A stretch of 64,000 nt of DNA from Desulfohalovibrio reitneri (GTDB taxonomy: Bacteria > Desulfobacterota > Desulfovibrionia > Desulfovibrionales > Desulfovibrionaceae), in contig NZ_JOMJ01000003.1 of assembly GCF_000711295.1 (NCBI RefSeq), positions 385,001-449,000 of the forward strand. The letters are read 5' to 3'. The notes under the pieces are model-generated. The model ran no database searches and was not told the DNA's origin. It saw only the letters and a program-made list of their open reading frames with translations. Positions 5,231 through 13,374 of the stretch are shown here, one piece after another. The position numbers and the translations under genes were made by a program. Within the stretch, counting starts at the first letter, position 1, and every line of letters begins with the position of its first letter.

Positions 5231-5462
5231 GGCGCGCCTCATTGTTTTTGGGGATGTTCCATTGAAGATGTCAGCAAAAAGGAGCGGTGCGGTCAATGGG
5301 GTATTGGTGTGGAAAAGCGCCGTTTCAGCCCAGCTATTGTGAATTCCTGGTCAAATGTTTACGTTCACGGTGTTTTTGTGACATGATTTTTCATTGTCTG
5401 CGGCAACCTGACAGGTAGCCGGACCCGGGGCGCAGCGCGCCCACTTGCTTTTCGAGTATCAC
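5231..5462. promoter_or_regulatory. Divergent intergenic region between gpmA and the cytochrome-rnf operon
   Basis: These 232 bases must carry the promoters of gpmA (minus strand) and of the rnf operon (plus strand). The part at 5335-5395 is clearly more AT-rich than its surroundings. It contains a TTGTGA at 5338-5343 and a second TTGTGA at 5377-5382, plus an inverted TCAC...GTGA at 5365-5381. None forms a convincing complete operator, and I do not see a textbook -35/-10 pair. Confidence 0.3.
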
Positions 5463-6221: not shown

Positions 6222-7409
6222 GTGGCGCGTGATGAACTGCGACTTCTGGGCGATGTTGCCCCCCTGCGCGAGCCGCCCGCGGCCGACGTGTTCCGCCTTG
6301 GCCTCGCCTACCAGGGGCTGGCCGTGGGCGAAGGCGAGACCGTGGGCGCGGGACAGCGCATCGCCAAGCACCAGGACGATCTCGGCGGCGACCTCCACGC
6401 CCCGGTGAGCGGCGTGGTGGAGAAGGTCGAGGGCGAGTCCGTGACCATCCGTGCCAGCCGTGACGTGCAGCCCGAAGAGAGCGGGAAGCTGGATACGGCC
6501 TCGGCCGATGCCCTGCGGCGTTCACTGACCCGCAAGGGCGTGGACATGCGCCGCATCAAGCCGGCCAAGGAACTGGTGGTCAACGGGGTCAATCCCGAGC
6601 CGGGGAGCTCGGTGCACCAGCAGCTTCTGACCCACGAGATGGAGACCCTGCTGGCCGGGTTGGCCAAGGTGCAGGCCGTGGTCGGACCGTCCCGAATCTT
6701 TCTTGTCGCCCCCGAGGGGCAGCCCGCCCTGGGGCCCAACCCCGTGGTGCGGGTGGAGCCGGTCCATCCCAACGGGCTGGACTCCCTGGCCGCGCGGGCC
6801 GTTACCGAGCGCGAATGGCCAGGGGACGTGGCCGTGGCCACGGTGCTTGATTTGTGGCGCATCGGCCGGGTTGCCCGCACCGGCCGCCCCCTCACCGAGA
6901 CGGTGCTGACCTGCGGCGGGGACAACTGGCGGGTACCCATCGGCGTGAGCGCCGGGCACATGCTGGAAGCCGCCGGGCTGAAGCCCGGGGACGGCGACCG
7001 GGTGGCCCTGGGCGGACGCATGCTGGGCGCGGCCCAGTACGAGCTTTCCGCAGCCGTGAGCCGCGACACCTACGCCCTGACCCTGGTTGCGGCCTCCGAA
7101 GGCCCGGAGTACGAGGACGCCGCCTGCATCAACTGCGGCGAGTGCGACCGCGTCTGTCCGGCACGCATCCCGGTAAGCCTCATGGCCCGTCAGGCGGAGT
7201 TCGGCTACTACGATCGGGCCGCGGACCTGGACCTGTACTCCTGTCTGGAGTGCGGCCTGTGCGCCTGGGTCTGCCCGGCCCGCCGTCCCATGCTGCAGTA
7301 CATCCGGCTGGCCAAGACCGAATTGGACAAGACCGAGGACTGGCTGCCCGATGAGCACCGCGCCCTGCGCGACCGTGCCAGGGCATGGCTTCGGAGGATC
7401 TGGTCGTGA
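6222..7409 (+). CDS. rnfC: Rnf complex subunit RnfC, lacking the usual FMN/NADH motifs
   Basis: Peripheral iron-sulfur subunit of the Rnf ion-translocating complex, 395 residues. The C-terminal part has two complete [4Fe-4S] motifs, CINCGECDRVCP near residue 301 and CLECGLCAWVCP near 340. The N-terminal HAPVSGVVEKV barrel-type segment is also typical. The middle is not: the glycine-rich GGAGFP loop that binds FMN, the ECEPY block and the GGxKQL stretch of ordinary RnfC are absent or reduced to remnants (VNGVNPEPGSS, HPNGLDSL). Start is a GTG. The 3' end overlaps rnfD. Identity is secure from context and cluster motifs; loss of NADH binding is inferred from the missing motifs. Confidence 0.88.
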   Translation: MARDELRLLGDVAPLREPPAADVFRLGLAYQGLAVGEGETVGAGQRIAKHQDDLGGDLHAPVSGVVEKVEGESVTIRASRDVQPEESGKLDTASADALRRSLTRKGVDMRRIKPAKELVVNGVNPEPGSSVHQQLLTHEMETLLAGLAKVQAVVGPSRIFLVAPEGQPALGPNPVVRVEPVHPNGLDSLAARAVTEREWPGDVAVATVLDLWRIGRVARTGRPLTETVLTCGGDNWRVPIGVSAGHMLEAAGLKPGDGDRVALGGRMLGAAQYELSAAVSRDTYALTLVAASEGPEYEDAACINCGECDRVCPARIPVSLMARQAEFGYYDRAADLDLYSCLECGLCAWVCPARRPMLQYIRLAKTELDKTEDWLPDEHRALRDRARAWLRRIWS

Positions 7410-8344
7410 AGCTGACCGTCTCCTGCCCCCCGCATTCCCATTGCGGCCGCACCACACGTGGACTCATGGCTTCCTGGCTGCTGGCCATGCTGCCGGCCGC
7501 GGTCATGGCCGCGCTGCTGTACGGGCTGCCCGCGGTGCGGGTCATGGCCTTGTCCATGGCCGTGGCAGTGGCCGTGGAGTGGCTGTGTTGCCGGGCCATG
7601 AAGCGGCCGTCCTCCATCGGCGACGGCAACGCCCTGCTCATCGGCCTGACCTTCGCTTTCCTCGTGCCGGTCACGGCGCCGTGGTGGCTTGTCACGGTGG
7701 GGTCGGCCACGGCCGTAGCCCTGGGCAAGATGGCTTTCGGCGGCCTGGGCGGCAATCCGCTCAACCCGGCCGTGGTGGGCTGGGCCGTCTGCCGCGTTTC
7801 CTGGAAGGGGCCCATGAACCCTGATTTCTCGGTGCTGCAGACCGCTCTGGAGTCGCCGGTGAGCGTCTTTAAATACTTCGGACCGCGGGCGGCTGCCGAG
7901 ATGGACAAGCTGGCCATGTTCTTCGGCGACCAGCTCGGGGGCGTGGCCGACAGCCAAGTGGCCGCGTTGCTGCTGGGCGGCGCGCTGCTGCTGGCCACGG
8001 GCAGGCTGCGTCCGGCCATCCCCCTGGCCTACCTGGCCGGGCTGGCCGGGGCCGCTTGGGTCTTCCAGATGGCCCTGCCCGGCGAGGCTGCCTCCCCGGC
8101 TTTTCATCTGCTGGCTGGCGGCACCGTGTTCGCGGCCTTTTTCCTGGCTCCCGAGTGGGGCTCCAGCCCGGTCTCCAAGCGGGGCATGATCGTCTACGGC
8201 CTCTTCGCCGGGGCCATGACCGTGCTCATACGCCAGTACGGGGTCTACACCCAGGCCGCGCCTTTCGCCGTGCTTTTGGCCAATCTGCTGACGCCGCTGC
8301 TGGACAACCTGCGGCCCAAGGCGTTCGCCAGGGGAGGTCGGTGA
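7406..8344 (+). CDS. rnfD: Rnf complex membrane subunit RnfD
   Basis: Polytopic inner-membrane subunit, 312 residues, with about nine hydrophobic segments. The family block GGLGGNPLNPAVVG is intact. RnfD normally carries covalent FMN on the Thr of a DxxSGAT-type motif; I find no such motif in this protein, and the corresponding segment after the NPAVVG block reads TALESPVSVFK. The GTG at 7406 overlaps the rnfC stop (GTGA) and has GGAGG eight bases upstream, so I prefer it to the ATG at 7385. rnfG starts on the last base of the rnfD stop codon. Confidence 0.88.
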   Translation: MKLTVSCPPHSHCGRTTRGLMASWLLAMLPAAVMAALLYGLPAVRVMALSMAVAVAVEWLCCRAMKRPSSIGDGNALLIGLTFAFLVPVTAPWWLVTVGSATAVALGKMAFGGLGGNPLNPAVVGWAVCRVSWKGPMNPDFSVLQTALESPVSVFKYFGPRAAAEMDKLAMFFGDQLGGVADSQVAALLLGGALLLATGRLRPAIPLAYLAGLAGAAWVFQMALPGEAASPAFHLLAGGTVFAAFFLAPEWGSSPVSKRGMIVYGLFAGAMTVLIRQYGVYTQAAPFAVLLANLLTPLLDNLRPKAFARGGR

Positions 8345-8925
8345 TGCGCGAGGGCCTGCGCATGATCATTGTCCTGACCTGCATCTGCGCCGGGTCCGGT
8401 TTTCTGCTGGCCTCGGTCAAGCAGTGGACCGAACCCAAGATCGAAAACCAGATCCTGACCCACGTCAAGGGCCCGGCGGTCATGGCCGTTCTGCCGCCGC
8501 ACGACAACGACCCCATCATGGATCGCCGCTCCTTCGTGATGCCGGATGGCGGCGAGGCGGTGGTCTTTCCGGCCGTCTCCGGGGGTGAGCTGCGGGCCGT
8601 GGCCTTGGAGCGCACCGCCGAGGGCTACGGCGGCCCGCTGGGCGTCATGGTCGGCTTCGAGGTGGGCGAGGAGGCGCTGACCGGCATCGCCGTGACCACC
8701 CACCGCGAGACCCCGGGGGTGGGATCGCGGGTCACTCTGCCGGGCTTCACCAGGCAGTTCGGCGGCCATCCCTTCTCCCAGCTGATCCTGCGCAGCGGGG
8801 GAGGGGACATCGACGCCGTCTCCGGTGCCACCGTTTCCTCCAAGGCGGCCATTTCCGCCGTCAACAAGGCGGTGGAGGACTACCGGGCTATCGCCCCCAG
8901 TCTGCGGGAGGCATTCGGCTCATGA
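8344..8925 (+). CDS. rnfG: Rnf complex FMN-binding subunit RnfG
   Basis: A 193-residue protein with one N-terminal membrane segment and a periplasmic FMN-binding domain. The flavinylation motif DAVSGATVSSKA is complete, with Thr163 as the expected phosphoester-linked FMN acceptor. ApbE, encoded at the end of the same operon, is the enzyme that attaches FMN to this motif. The ATG follows a GGGAGG sequence and shares one base with the rnfD stop. The frame is open far upstream, but that part is a shadow of rnfD. Confidence 0.92.
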   Translation: MREGLRMIIVLTCICAGSGFLLASVKQWTEPKIENQILTHVKGPAVMAVLPPHDNDPIMDRRSFVMPDGGEAVVFPAVSGGELRAVALERTAEGYGGPLGVMVGFEVGEEALTGIAVTTHRETPGVGSRVTLPGFTRQFGGHPFSQLILRSGGGDIDAVSGATVSSKAAISAVNKAVEDYRAIAPSLREAFGS

Positions 8926-9650
8926 ACAGGCTCTGGAAGGAATTCAGCAAGGGGCTGTGGCGGGACCTGCCGCCCTTCAAGATCGTGCTGGGCCTGTGCC
9001 CGGTGCTGGCCGTGACCAAGAGCGCCTCCAACGGTCTGGGCATGGGCGTGGCGGTCATCTTCGTGCTCACCCTGGCCAACATCATCGTCTCCTCCCTGCG
9101 CAAGCTCATTCCGGCCAAGGTGCGCATCGCGGCCTACATCGTCATCATCGCCACCCTGGTGGTGACGGTGGAGCAACTCATGCAGGCCTTCAGCTACCCG
9201 CTCTACCAGCGCCTTGGCATTTTCGTTCCCCTCATCGTGGTCAACTGCCTCATCCTTGGCCGGGCCGAAGCCTTCGCCGCGCGCAACCCGGTGCACCTGG
9301 CCGCGGCCGACGGCCTGGGCATGGGAGTGGGCTTCGCCGCCTCCCTCACCGTGCTGGGCGGCCTGCGCGAGCTGCTCGGGGCGGGGTCGCTGTTCGGCGC
9401 GGCCGTCATGCCCGCTTCCTTCGAACCCTTCGCCTTCATGATCGAGGCTCCCGGGGCCTTCGTCAGCCTTGGGCTGATGCTGGCGGCCATGAATGTCATC
9501 GGCCGCCTGGAAGGGCGCGCGCCGGCCCAGCACGGCGGCTGCGCCACCTGCGCCGGGGCCTGCTACAGGCGCGAGGGGGTGGAGGAAATGGAGGCGGGCG
9601 GCCTGCCGCCCGGGCTCGAGGATTTCCGCAAGGAAAAGCAGGAGTCGTAG
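8922..9650 (+). CDS. rnfE: Rnf complex membrane subunit RnfE with cysteine-bearing C-terminal tail
   Basis: Inner-membrane subunit, 242 residues, about six membrane segments, homologous to RnfA. Cysteines sit in the two expected membrane positions (GLCPVLAVTKSA near the start and VVNCLILGRAEA); in Rnf/Nqr structures such RnfA/RnfE cysteines hold a [2Fe-2S] cluster between the two subunits. The unusual part is a hydrophilic tail of about 45 residues with C207, C210 and C214 (CATCAGAC) followed by a charged end. Start and rnfG stop overlap as ATGA; rnfA begins on the next base after the stop. Confidence 0.92.
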   Translation: MNRLWKEFSKGLWRDLPPFKIVLGLCPVLAVTKSASNGLGMGVAVIFVLTLANIIVSSLRKLIPAKVRIAAYIVIIATLVVTVEQLMQAFSYPLYQRLGIFVPLIVVNCLILGRAEAFAARNPVHLAAADGLGMGVGFAASLTVLGGLRELLGAGSLFGAAVMPASFEPFAFMIEAPGAFVSLGLMLAAMNVIGRLEGRAPAQHGGCATCAGACYRREGVEEMEAGGLPPGLEDFRKEKQES

Positions 9651-10226
9651 ATGCACGACTACTTCCTGATGGTCATGTCGGCCATCTTCGTGAACAACAT
9701 CGTCCTGGCGCAGTACTTGGGCAATTGCCCCTTCCTGGGCTGCTCCAAGGACCGCAAGGTGGCCATGGGCATGGGCGGAGCGGTGGTTTTCGTGGCCTTC
9801 ATGGCCAGCGTCATCACTTGGCTCATCCAGCGCTACGCCCTCACTCCCCTGGGGCTGGGCTACCTGCAGACCATCGTTTTCATCCTGGTCATCGCCTCGC
9901 TGGTGCAGTTCGTGGAGATGTTCCTCAAGAAGGTCATCCCGCCGCTGTATACAGCGCTGGGCATCTTCCTCCCGCTTATCACCACCAACTGCGCGGTCAT
10001 GGGCATCGCCCTTCTGGTGCAGCGGCAGGAGCTGACCTTCACCGAGGCCGTGGTCTTTTCCCTGGCCTCCGGCGCGGGCTTCATGCTGGCCCTGGTGGTG
10101 CTCTCCGCCATCCGCGAGCGACTGCTGGTGGCGCGGATGCCCAAGGCCATGGAAGGCACGGCCGCCGGGCTGGTCATGGCCGGGCTCATGTCCCTGGCCT
10201 TCTTCGCCTTCCAGGGGATGATCTAG
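9651..10226 (+). CDS. rnfA: Rnf complex membrane subunit RnfA
   Basis: A 191-residue inner-membrane protein with six hydrophobic segments, the usual length for RnfA. The diagnostic blocks NNIVLAQYLGNCPFLGCS and ITTNCAVMG carry the conserved cysteines that pair with those of RnfE around a membrane-embedded [2Fe-2S] cluster in known structures. It starts on the base after the rnfE stop codon, showing tight translational coupling. Nothing in it is truncated or odd, apart from an extra cysteine in the first block. Confidence 0.94.
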   Translation: MHDYFLMVMSAIFVNNIVLAQYLGNCPFLGCSKDRKVAMGMGGAVVFVAFMASVITWLIQRYALTPLGLGYLQTIVFILVIASLVQFVEMFLKKVIPPLYTALGIFLPLITTNCAVMGIALLVQRQELTFTEAVVFSLASGAGFMLALVVLSAIRERLLVARMPKAMEGTAAGLVMAGLMSLAFFAFQGMI

Positions 10227-10267: not shown

Positions 10268-12403
10268 ATGATGGTTGAAACATCCGTCCTCTTCCTGCTG
10301 GCCCTTGGATTCGGCGCCGCCGTGGTGCTGGCGGTGGCCTCGCGGCTTCTCTACGTCAAGGAGGACCCCCGCATCGCCGAGGTGGAGGCCGTGCTGCCGG
10401 GCATCAACTGCGGCGGTTGCGGCTACGCTGGCTGCGCCGGGGTGGCCCAGGCCGTGGTCAAGGGCGAGGCCGGGACCAACGTGTGCGTGGCCGGCGGCCC
10501 GGAAACCGCCGAGGCCGTTGCCGGGGTTCTGGGACTGGAGGTCATGCTCCGAGAGCCGGAACTCGCCTTCCATGACTGCCAGGGCGGACGCCGGGCCGCG
10601 GAGAAGTACCAATACGAGGGCGTGCGTGACTGCCGCGCCCAGGCGCTTCTGCACGGAGGCTCCAAGGAGTGCGGCTACGGCTGCCTGGGGCTGGGCACCT
10701 GCGTGCGCGCCTGCCCCTTCGGCGCCATGCGCATGACCGCCAAGGGCGTGCCGGAAATCGACCCGGCCAAGTGCCGCGCCTGCGGCCGTTGCGCCGATGT
10801 CTGCCCGCGCGGGGTGATGACCATCGTCTCCACCCCGGCCCGCCTGCTGCATCTGAACACCACCGGGGAGTGTCTGGCTCCCTGCCGCCAGATTTGCCCG
10901 GCCCAGATCAACATTCCGCAGTACATCGAGCAGGCCAAGATGGGCCTGTACGAGGACGCCATTCTCACCCTCAAGGAGCGCAACCCCCTTATTCTCTCCA
11001 TCGGCCGGGTCTGCCCCGCGCCGTGCGAGGGGTACTGCCGCCGCGCCCTGGTGGACGACCCCGTGGGCATCAACTACGTCAAGCGTTTCTTGGCGGACTG
11101 GGAGATGGAGAACGGCCGGGTGGAACTGTCCATCGCCAACGAGACGGGCAAGCGGGTGGCCGTCATCGGCGGAGGCCCGGCCGGGCTGTCCTGCGCCTAT
11201 TTCCTGCGCCGCCTGGGCCATCGGCCGACCATTTTCGATTCCCAGCCCGAACTGGGTGGCCAGTTGCGCTACGGCATTCCGGAATACCGGCTGCCCAAGC
11301 GCGTGCTGGACTGGGAAATCCAGTCCATCCTGGACCTTGGTATCGAGGCCCACACCAACCAGCAGCTTGGCCACGATTTCACCGTCGATTCCCTGCGGAG
11401 CGAGGGCTACGAGGCCTTCTTCCTGGGCATGGGCGCCTGGCTCAACCGGGGCCTGGGCGTGGAGGGCGAGGACGCCAGGGGCGTCTGGCCGGGCACCGAG
11501 TTTCTGACCGAGTTTTCCCTGGGCCGCGAACCGGAGATCGGCCGGAACGTGGTCGTGGTGGGCGGCGGCAACACGGCCGTGGACGCGGCCCGTACCGCCC
11601 GGCGGACAAACGCGAACGTGACCATCATGTACCGCCGCACCGAGGCGGAGATGCCGGCCAACAAGGAGGAAATCCACGCCGCCAAGGAGGAGGGCGTGGC
11701 GTTTCGGCTGCTGGCCAATCCATCCCGCATCGTCAAGGACGAATCCGGCCGCGTCAAGCAGCTTGAATATCTTGAGATGGAACTCGGCGAACCGGACGAA
11801 TCCGGCCGCCGCAGGCCGGTGCCCAAGGAAGGGTCGGAGTCGCTCATGGACTGCGACATGCTCATCGCGGCCATCGGCCAGTACCCTGACACCTGCTACA
11901 TCGAGGAAGAGGCCTGCGACATCTCCAAGCGCAAGACCATCGTGGTGGATCAGGACACCATGCAGACCTCCATCGAGGGCGTGTTCGCCGCGGGCGATCT
12001 GGTCAGCGGCCCCGCGCTGGTGGTCACGGCCATAGGCGGCGGGCGCAAGGCGGCCCGGGGCATCCACTACTACCTCCAACAGGGCGAGATTCCCGTGCCG
12101 GTGAATCTGCAACGCCGCCCCATCGAGGAAACCCTGTTCCAGGACCTGGAGGGCGTGGGCAAGATTCCCCGTGTGCGCCAGCCGGAACTGTGCGCCGAGG
12201 AGCGGGAATGCAACTTCCGCGAGGTGGAACAGACCATTTCCGAGCGCGAACTCAAGCTGGAGGCCGCCCGCTGCCTGCGCTGCGGCTCCACCTGCTACAA
12301 CAAGGACCCCGAGGCGTTGAGCATCATGGGCAGGAAAGAATTCCAGGCCTCTGGCCAGGAGATTTCCCTGGACGACATTCCGTTGAAGGAGGCCAGGCCG
12401 TGA
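10268..12403 (+). CDS. rnfB: RnfB fused to a GltD-like FAD/NAD(P)-binding oxidoreductase
   Basis: A 711-residue fusion; ordinary RnfB has about 180-330 residues. Residues 1-190 are RnfB: one membrane anchor (about 7-27), the Fe-S motif C48-C51-C56-C73 (INCGGCGYAGC) and two ferredoxin clusters (C135/139/145/149 and C169/172/175/179). From about 200 the protein follows the NADPH-glutamate synthase small-subunit (GltD) fold: cysteines at 202/206/210 and 249/253/257, FAD motif VAVIGGGPAG near 297-306, NAD(P) motif VVVVGGGNTAVDAARTA near 428, and the FAD-closing EGVFAAGDLVSGPALV. It ends with another CXXC pair. Reading is continuous, so the fusion is real in this sequence. The start codon lacks a clear Shine-Dalgarno; 10271 is an alternative ATG. 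Confidence 0.93.
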   Translation: MMVETSVLFLLALGFGAAVVLAVASRLLYVKEDPRIAEVEAVLPGINCGGCGYAGCAGVAQAVVKGEAGTNVCVAGGPETAEAVAGVLGLEVMLREPELAFHDCQGGRRAAEKYQYEGVRDCRAQALLHGGSKECGYGCLGLGTCVRACPFGAMRMTAKGVPEIDPAKCRACGRCADVCPRGVMTIVSTPARLLHLNTTGECLAPCRQICPAQINIPQYIEQAKMGLYEDAILTLKERNPLILSIGRVCPAPCEGYCRRALVDDPVGINYVKRFLADWEMENGRVELSIANETGKRVAVIGGGPAGLSCAYFLRRLGHRPTIFDSQPELGGQLRYGIPEYRLPKRVLDWEIQSILDLGIEAHTNQQLGHDFTVDSLRSEGYEAFFLGMGAWLNRGLGVEGEDARGVWPGTEFLTEFSLGREPEIGRNVVVVGGGNTAVDAARTARRTNANVTIMYRRTEAEMPANKEEIHAAKEEGVAFRLLANPSRIVKDESGRVKQLEYLEMELGEPDESGRRRPVPKEGSESLMDCDMLIAAIGQYPDTCYIEEEACDISKRKTIVVDQDTMQTSIEGVFAAGDLVSGPALVVTAIGGGRKAARGIHYYLQQGEIPVPVNLQRRPIEETLFQDLEGVGKIPRVRQPELCAEERECNFREVEQTISERELKLEAARCLRCGSTCYNKDPEALSIMGRKEFQASGQEISLDDIPLKEARP

Positions 12404-13374
12404 TTTCCCGCCGCCGTTTTCTGGGGCTGGCCGCCACGGCCGCCGCGGGGTGCCTGGTGCCCGCCTTCGCCGGGGCGGAGCGGCTGGACGGACGCGTCGT
12501 GGCCCAGCAACTGCGCACAGGCATGGGCACCTTCGTCGCCGTGGTCGCGGCGGACGCCTCCCGCGACCGGGCGGAGGAGGCGGTGGGGCTTGCTTTTCGG
12601 GCCATGGAGTCCCTGGAGCCGATTTTTTCGCGATTCAACCCCGCCTCGCCGGTTAGTGTGCTCAACGAGCGGAGCAGGGTGGACGCGCCGCCGGAACTGG
12701 CCGATCTGGCCGGGCGATGCCACGATCTCCACGCCCGCACGGCAGGGGCCTTCAACCCACTGGTCCTGCCCGCGCAGAGGGTGCTTGAAAGCGGCTCGGA
12801 CGACCCCGGGGCCGTGCGCGAGGCGTTGGCCCTTGCGGACATGAACGGTTTTTCCGTTCGCGGCCGCGAGCTGCGCTTTGAAAAGTCCGGCATGGGGCTG
12901 ACCCTGGACGGCGCGGCCAAGGGCGTCATCGTGGACCGCATGGCGGAAGCGCTGGAACGCGCCGGGGTGTCGAACTACTGCGTCAACGCCGGGGGCGACG
13001 TGCGCGTTTCCGGCCGCACCGAGCGGGGCGAGCCCTGGCTGGTGGCTGTGGAGAATCCGCTGGGCGGGCGGCGCGAAATCCTGGCTCTTACATCTGGTGG
13101 TCTGGCTACTTCCGGCGGCTACGAGGTCTCCTACGGGCCGGAAGAGCTTTTCCACCATATTCTGGATCCCGCGCGGGGCGGCTCGCCGCGTGGACAGGCG
13201 CAGGCCACCGCCCACGCCCCCACCTGCGGCGAGGCGGACGCACTGGCCACGGCCCTGCTGGTGGGCGGCCCAAGGCGAGGGCTGGAATGGCTCGGGCCCG
13301 GCCGGCATGCGCGGCTGGTCTCCCGGGATGGCGGCGCTATCGCCAGCCCCGGCTGGAACACCTTGCGGGGCTGA
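12400..13374 (+). CDS. apbE: FAD:protein FMN transferase ApbE
   Basis: Attaches FMN from FAD to the Thr of DxxSGAT motifs, here the expected client being RnfG. The 324-residue protein begins with a twin-arginine-like signal (SRRRFLGLAATAAAG) that also contains a possible lipobox ending at Cys, which fits a periplasmic or lipid-anchored enzyme. Family motifs include FSRFNPASPVSVLN, LTLDGAAKGVIVD and NAGGDVRVSG. The GTG start overlaps the rnfB stop (GTGA); the frame is open further upstream inside rnfB, but the signal peptide fixes the start. Last gene of the rnf operon. Confidence 0.92.
   Translation: MISRRRFLGLAATAAAGCLVPAFAGAERLDGRVVAQQLRTGMGTFVAVVAADASRDRAEEAVGLAFRAMESLEPIFSRFNPASPVSVLNERSRVDAPPELADLAGRCHDLHARTAGAFNPLVLPAQRVLESGSDDPGAVREALALADMNGFSVRGRELRFEKSGMGLTLDGAAKGVIVDRMAEALERAGVSNYCVNAGGDVRVSGRTERGEPWLVAVENPLGGRREILALTSGGLATSGGYEVSYGPEELFHHILDPARGGSPRGQAQATAHAPTCGEADALATALLVGGPRRGLEWLGPGRHARLVSRDGGAIASPGWNTLRG

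Follow-up and report, generated by a model that had tools for sequence, protein, structure and literature searches.

The Rnf complex of Desulfohalovibrio reitneri carries a complete GltD-type FAD/NAD(P) module on its RnfB subunit, lacks the FMN/NADH loop of RnfC and the covalent-FMN threonine of RnfD, and probably has a different job from the textbook Rnf. We see about an even chance that, in this large-RnfB (Tol2/Rnf2-type) complex, RnfB has taken over the pyridine-nucleotide port from RnfC, so that the pump links cytoplasmic NADPH (perhaps ferredoxin) to periplasmic cytochrome c. Sulfate reducers are generally held to use Rnf as a ferredoxin:NAD pump, and in D. alaskensis Rnf is reported to be important for growth with sulfate on hydrogen, formate and ethanol (PMC4215793); if the NAD port is indeed gone and electrons leave via RnfG, energy-conservation models for Desulfovibrio and for marine Desulfobacteraceae would need revision.

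The rnf operon of D. reitneri

The sequence analysed here (the window) is a 64,000-nt stretch of the D. reitneri genome (GCF_000711295.1, NZ_JOMJ01000003.1, positions 385,001–449,000, forward strand). We identified all six Rnf subunits (RnfA–E and RnfG) in one operon with the gene order cytochrome c, rnfC, rnfD, rnfG, rnfE, rnfA, rnfB-gltD and apbE (Table 1). The genome also encodes dsrA and two nuoB-family frames above cut-off, and among the matches listed the fusion is its sole RnfB-containing match. A weak Rex-operator-like site was observed at window positions 5337–5354, about 110 bases upstream of the cytochrome start. It has three mismatches against the consensus, and the window contains three such matches against 0.9 expected, with as many in 7 of 100 shuffles.

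Table 1. Features of the rnf operon and of the RnfB-GltD fusion (window positions).
Feature	Positions	Strand	Basis
Multiheme cytochrome c, first operon gene; ten CxxCH, N-terminal hydrophobic segment	5463..6218	+	frame open from 5445
rnfC, 395 residues; RnfC fold and eight cluster cysteines retained, FMN/NADH loop absent	6222..7409	+	
rnfD, 319 residues; S157 at covalent-FMN Thr position, N127 retained, E257 at riboflavin Asp position	7385..8344	+	
rnfG, SGAT flavin site	8341..8925	+	
rnfE, both conserved cluster cysteines present	8922..9650	+	
rnfA, both conserved cluster cysteines present	9651..10226	+	
rnfB-gltD fusion gene, 711 residues	10268..12403	+	open frame and homologues
RnfB part, residues 1–190; membrane helix 2–27, PF04060 FeS 43–74, ferredoxin clusters about 135–183	10268..10837	+	
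Fer4_20 domain, residues 203–283	10874..11116	+	Pfam
FAD/NAD(P) two-dinucleotide-binding domain (Pyr_redox_2), residues 296–592	11153..12043	+	Pfam, model
NADP-binding motif region, residues 423–470 (GGGNTAVD..YRRTEAEMPA)	11534..11677	+	
C-terminal C669-x2-C672-x3-C676-Y	12272..12298	+	invariant in 28 fusions (alignment A3)
apbE (rnfF), flavin transferase family; start overlaps fusion stop	12400..13374	+	

The fusion is not new in kind. According to PMC5109826, large RnfB proteins of this sort are described in Desulfobacteraceae; the Tol2-type complex of D. toluolica pairs an RnfB of about 700 residues that has NAD-binding sites with an RnfC whose NADH domain is missing, and five or six subunits of such a complex were found by proteomics in membrane-enriched fractions of D. 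multivorans. Such a complex was named Rnf2 and assigned to the core genome of Desulfobacteraceae, Rnf1 being said to occur in Desulfovibrionaceae (PMC11887813). The window matches the Tol2-type/Rnf2 pattern in its RnfB of about 700 residues with nucleotide-binding sites and in its RnfC without NADH domain. It differs in belonging to Desulfovibrionaceae, its operon also including apbE and a cytochrome with ten CxxCH. D. reitneri adds a Desulfovibrionaceae member, and large-RnfB complexes occur in this family in the window, L031–L037, L057 and L039 (a contig-end split). The present analysis contributes the NADP-type motif and the loss of the RnfD FMN site.

RnfB is fused to an NADP-type GltD module

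A preliminary description of the DNA had proposed one uninterrupted 711-residue frame joining a standard RnfB to a complete GltD-type module, and this was borne out. The frame runs from the ATG at 10268 to the stop at 12403 with zero internal stops. RnfB occupies residues 1–190 and the GltD/NfnB-type FAD/NAD(P) module residues 200–677, in line with NCBIfam, whose RnfB models cover about residues 1–212 and whose GltD-like models cover about 200–678. The RnfB part has the expected anchor and ferredoxin clusters as well as C48, C51, C56 and C73, which are invariant in eight aligned fusions, window included. The second ferredoxin pair that follows residue ~190 in the 21 separate RnfBs compared is missing from the fusion. 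Within Fer4_20, C206, C210, C249, C253 and C257 are invariant in 28 fusions (alignment A3); C202 is variable and is unconserved in many Desulfobacterales fusions.

An AlphaFold2 model of the fusion, calculated from 28 fusions, has a mean pLDDT of 83.6 and a pTM of 0.80. Its residues 200–675 match the GltD-like part of Nfn-ABC with a Z-score of 50.9 over 469 residues (46% identity), and matches of residues 200–677 to the GltD-like parts of Nfn-ABC, StnABC, NfnI and GltD range from Z 31.8 to 50.9. The Fer4_20 domain together with the FAD and NADP Rossmann motifs places the module in the GltD/NfnB family. It shares fold and motifs with NfnB, NfnA of Nfn-ABC and GltD over residues ~200–677 (32–48% identity) and is unlike them in being fused to a membrane-anchored RnfB, with no Nfn partner in the operon.

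We looked for substitutions in the essential FAD and NAD(P) motifs and found the GltD-type FAD and NADP motifs of the window intact. By eye, the window and 20 further fusions (L031–L035, L057–L064, L066–L070, L072 and L074) show an intact GGGN(T/S)A..YRR, and NADP(H)-bound NfnI reads GGGNTA..YRRTRKEM over the same stretch. NADH-type relatives are expected to differ there. The choice between NADH and NADPH had been left open in the preliminary description; the GGGNTA..YRR motif points to NADP(H), as in NfnI, and on this motif the nucleotide port of the fusion looks NADP(H)-type. The alignment of the GltD part to NADP(H) enzymes over its full length argues for the NADPH-to-cytochrome reading; a contrary sign for the NADP preference is that two of the best structural matches are titled NAD(H) complexes.

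RnfC has lost its NADH site but not its cluster cysteines

Aligned to RnfC of Acetobacterium woodii, the window RnfC lacks the stretch containing the GxGGAxFP loop and reads NPEPGSSV in place of CEPYLTAD. It scores 148.1 bits against TIGR01945 (cut-off 245.95) and 20.2 bits against Pfam Complex1_51K (cut-off 31.2), under the cut-off in both cases. The FMN/NADH loop expected of RnfC in a canonical NAD-linked Rnf is thus absent. The RnfC of D. toluolica has likewise lost its NADH domain, as stated in PMC5109826. In a set of 71 operons with an RnfC of more than 300 residues and an RnfD, the loop was identified in 28 of 47 operons with a separate RnfB and in 0 of 24 fusion operons; L064, L076, L081, L096, L103, L113, L119 and L134, where RnfC is absent or incomplete, were set aside from this count. 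The 19 loop-less operons with a separate RnfB comprise 17 of the window's order, one of Desulfofervidaceae (L091) and one of Methanosarcinaceae (L095). Because the loop is also missing from these 19 of 47, the RnfC loss is untied to the fusion, and we rejected the fusion as its reason. The proposal that NAD(P)H electrons pass through RnfB rather than RnfC accordingly stands in part: the FAD and NADP motifs are intact and RnfC is without GxGGAxFP and CEPY, but the fusion does not explain what happened to RnfC.

The predicted model of the window RnfC adopts the RnfC fold (pLDDT 91.9; Z 35.0 over 378 residues). The eight cluster cysteines of RnfC are present in 43 of 43 loop-less operons, and are thus fully conserved despite the lost FMN loop and the lost RnfD FMN threonine.

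The RnfD flavin site is degenerate in cytochrome-linked operons

In the A. woodii RnfD structure, FMN is attached to T156 and riboflavin is held by N123 and D249 (PMC11889175). The aligned residues of the window RnfD are S157, N127 and E257, so the covalent-FMN threonine of canonical NAD-linked Rnf is replaced by serine. Compared with the canonical complexes of A. woodii, Clostridium tetanomorphum and Azotobacter vinelandii, the window is alike in its six subunits, RnfA/E cysteines, RnfG flavin motif and RnfC fold; it is unlike them in having neither the RnfC FMN/NADH loop nor the RnfD FMN threonine, and in having the GltD module in place of the second ferredoxin pair of RnfB.

Across operons, the RnfD threonine occurs in all 28 that have the NADH loop and in none of the 32 with a recognised multiheme cytochrome c (20 fusion and 12 separate-RnfB operons), where the site is Y, S, A, D, E, H or N. 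The equivalents of N123 and D249 are found in all 28 NADH-loop operons and are variable in the cytochrome operons, both being retained in cytochrome-linked L039 and L048. Among the 11 loop-less operons in which no cytochrome was recognised, four keep the threonine (L040, L051, L062 and L066). A cytochrome was scored as recognised where some frame of the retrieved stretch resembled that of the window, a criterion that misses CxxCH-rich frames in L095, L092 and L075. L095 has a five-CxxCH frame beside rnfC and lacks both the NADH loop and the RnfD threonine; in L092, an operon that has the NADH loop, a four-CxxCH frame precedes rnfC by about 2.3 kb, and the two CxxCH-rich frames of L075 lie on the opposite strand. 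The RnfG flavin residue is threonine in 78 of 80 rows and serine in two, and the RnfA/E cluster cysteines are retained in all 43 loop-less operons.

The unusual part is the degenerate return path throughout the cytochrome-linked Rnf group. In the portions of the literature searched, we found no report of RnfD threonine loss in sulfate reducers. On a tree that includes RnfD itself, we counted about three threonine losses and five cytochrome changes, and a pair test of cytochrome against threonine loss, with L095 scored as cytochrome-less, had at most one informative pair, too few to reach significance. With so few independent evolutionary events, the statistical link is not established, and this counts against the NADPH-to-cytochrome reading.

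A proposed route from NADPH to periplasmic cytochrome c

An NADP motif on RnfB, the missing RnfC loop and RnfD threonine, and preserved RnfA/E and RnfG beside a cytochrome gene make electron transfer from NADPH or ferredoxin to cytochrome c the simplest reading. NADPH would donate a hydride to the FAD of the GltD module, and single electrons would then pass through the module clusters to the RnfB ferredoxin clusters, the [2Fe-2S] cluster of RnfA/E and the FMN of RnfG on the outside; route and residues follow the A. woodii description in PMC11889175. Without the covalent-FMN threonine, the usual return route through RnfD to RnfC and NAD looks broken, and from this we infer the exit step, in which RnfG would exchange electrons with periplasmic cytochrome c. 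Ion movement through RnfA/E would be coupled to this electron flow. The pump would be reversible, with reduced cytochrome and ion entry yielding NADPH or reduced ferredoxin, and ferredoxin may still enter at RnfB. More generally, and with somewhat less than even confidence, we propose that Rnf complexes linked to cytochromes in sulfate reducers, whether RnfB is fused or not, work as half-Rnf pumps rather than as ferredoxin:NAD oxidoreductases: the electron path would stop at RnfG, where electrons would be exchanged with multiheme cytochromes of the periplasm. The fusion form would then be an ion-coupled NADPH:cytochrome c oxidoreductase. The residues named above make the half-Rnf reading directly testable.

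A connection of Rnf to the periplasmic pool through the cytochrome had been proposed earlier (PMC4287179). The Rnf of Methanosarcina acetivorans also has a cytochrome c in its operon; it reportedly does not interact with NAD or NADP, and in the published model RnfG hands its electrons to cytochrome c (PMC4023990). This complex and the Methanosarcinaceae operon L095, which unlike the window has a separate RnfB and no GltD module, may be regarded as a distant parallel in favour of the cytochrome-linked reading. Vesicle experiments on ferredoxin-to-NAD coupled ion transport in D. alaskensis are described as unsuccessful in PMC4841214; taken by analogy, they would also speak for this reading, which, if true, offers a simple explanation for them.

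Other observations count against it. In D. alaskensis, again used by analogy, mutants of the cytochrome gene dhcA are reported to have almost no phenotype (PMC4215793), which would not favour a cytochrome exit. Impairment is reported for Rnf mutants, with an rnfD mutant among the strains (PMC4841214). A dead-end RnfC would not need eight conserved cysteines. Also, electrons flowing outward would by themselves reduce the membrane potential. Ion export would have to outweigh this, as the lower proton motive force described for the rnfA mutant in the same source demands. Finally, a second class of fusions persists though its NADP motif is lost.

Alternative readings

One alternative takes the GltD module for a plain ferredoxin:NADP+ reductase attached to the pump. 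The module would exchange electrons between the ferredoxin clusters of RnfB and NADP(H), and the rest of the complex would keep the full U-shaped route and serve some cytoplasmic partner at the two RnfC clusters. We consider this unlikely, though it accounts for several observations: the window RnfC model keeps its fold and all eight cysteines, both riboflavin residues persist in L039 and L048, and PMC5109826 expects an RnfC partner other than NAD that is still to be identified. The RnfD threonine is, however, missing from 22 of 24 fusion operons, window included, and the many different residues that replace it point to lost constraint.

Electron bifurcation, which the preliminary description had raised, would have NADPH electrons split at the FAD as in NfnB, one going to ferredoxin and the other via RnfA/E and RnfG to a higher-potential acceptor. 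Two bifurcating enzymes, Nfn-ABC and StnABC, do provide the closest structural matches of the module with their GltD-like parts, a family resemblance in favour of this chemistry. The same fold is common to GltD and dihydropyrimidine dehydrogenase, which are not known to bifurcate, and a search of the operon identified no NfnA- or NuoF-like partner gene. We judge bifurcation improbable.

Quite improbable, too, is an NQR-like route in which RnfB takes up NADPH and RnfD delivers the electrons to menaquinone. The layout is like that of Na+-NQR, in which NqrF receives NADH and the NqrA cofactors are lost (PMC11889175 and PMC12174285), and the same parallel is drawn in PMC11434368. The input module of the window is GltD-type, however, and the window does not show the NqrF-type ferredoxin reductase input and NqrB quinone site of Na+-NQR: the 319-residue RnfD can be aligned to NqrB only over the part beyond about residue 138 of NqrB, is without the extra N-terminal part of NqrB, and has serine at the FMN threonine position.

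The statement in PMC11434368 that many Desulfovibrionaceae lost rnfB and have an FAD-dependent oxidoreductase in its place is hardly credible as an account of these operons, as nine of nine intact fusion frames examined in this family (window, L031–L037 and L057) have the full RnfB N-terminus; since the oxidoreductase contains RnfB in these cases, fusion rather than loss is most likely, and the gene of PMC11434368 is most likely the same fusion gene under another name.

Distribution and history of the fusion

The suspicion that other Desulfovibrionales have the fusion proved correct. Among the matches listed, intact full-length fusions occur in 6 of 39 genomes, namely that of the window, G004, G007, G013 (two), G016 (two) and G020, and named loci with the fusion include Desulfosarcina, Desulfobacula, Desulfocarbo, Desulfopila and Pseudodesulfovibrio. 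A wider homologue search for its spread found full-length fusion matches at E <= 1e-140 in at least 38 of 395 Desulfobacterota genomes, 30 of these 38 with at least 50% identity; the fusion may also occur beyond this phylum. Intact homologues elsewhere mean that the fusion is neither a chance read-through nor a sequencing error. The G022 gene (L039), apparently split across two contig ends, was counted as a fusion, as it runs off one contig end and its GltD part lies at the end of another. L081 is frame-broken. G028 has a 602-residue frame without the anchor and first FeS domain. L038:8510-10312 encodes 601 residues with RnfB ferredoxin clusters and a GltD module and without anchor or first FeS domain; no second strong rnf match was found along its stretch. 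Anchorless matches like L038 were observed in G112, G145, G201 and G226.

In a quick tree of RnfA, RnfE and RnfD, all 27 fusion operons included and 13 separate-RnfB Desulfovibrionales operons form one 40-row clade (support 95) with an inner 36-row clade (support 98), and the separate-RnfB Desulfovibrionales operons nest inside the fusion group. A 32-row quick tree has the same pattern, with supports of 93 and 98 for the corresponding clades. The window groups with Desulfobacterales large-RnfB operons, as expected for the Tol2-type/Rnf2 complex, and the Desulfovibrionaceae records L057, L081, L093, L097 and L116 fall among its group. Forcing the 16 fusions of the 32-row set together lowered the log-likelihood by 189.8 and was rejected (p-AU 5.85e-91; LG+G4, quick tree, the constraint having been chosen with the first tree already known). 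Resolution is weak in the tree of RnfB N-termini, which has at least three changes of fusion state. In the GltD tree, where L072 is a fusion under a wrong label and L056 represents the detached part of the gene in G022, all anchored RnfB fusions lie on one side of a branch (92) from the NfnB/GltD paralogues, and anchorless L038 lies on the paralogue side.

A single fusion with later loss or replacement would fit this pattern. An origin of the separate Desulfovibrionales RnfBs by simple truncation was unsupported, as these contain the second ferredoxin pair; given that pair, replacement of rnfB, domain swap or repeated fusion may have taken place. In 13 separate RnfBs (L042, L043, L045, L046, L048, L049, L050, L052, L053, L054, L093, L097 and L116), the last cluster motif is altered to CxxYGxxCxxxCxxxC, replacing CxxCxxCxxxCP.

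The fusions fall into two classes, with L065 (Desulfopila) between them. Window-like fusions retain GGGN(T/S)AxD and YRR; the second class has lost both and keeps the FAD motif wholly or in altered form. Second-class members with rnf operons are L036, L037, L075, L076 and L089; G013 and G016 carry L036 and L037, respectively, in addition to a window-like Rnf operon. For L071, L073, L077, L078, L080, L082–L088 and L090, no rnf genes were found on the stretch examined, and the contig of L079 is too short to judge its rnf neighbours. By eye, some neighbours of L071, L073, L077, L086, L088 and L090 resemble NuoF/hydrogenase-type, formate-dehydrogenase-type or RseC-like proteins.
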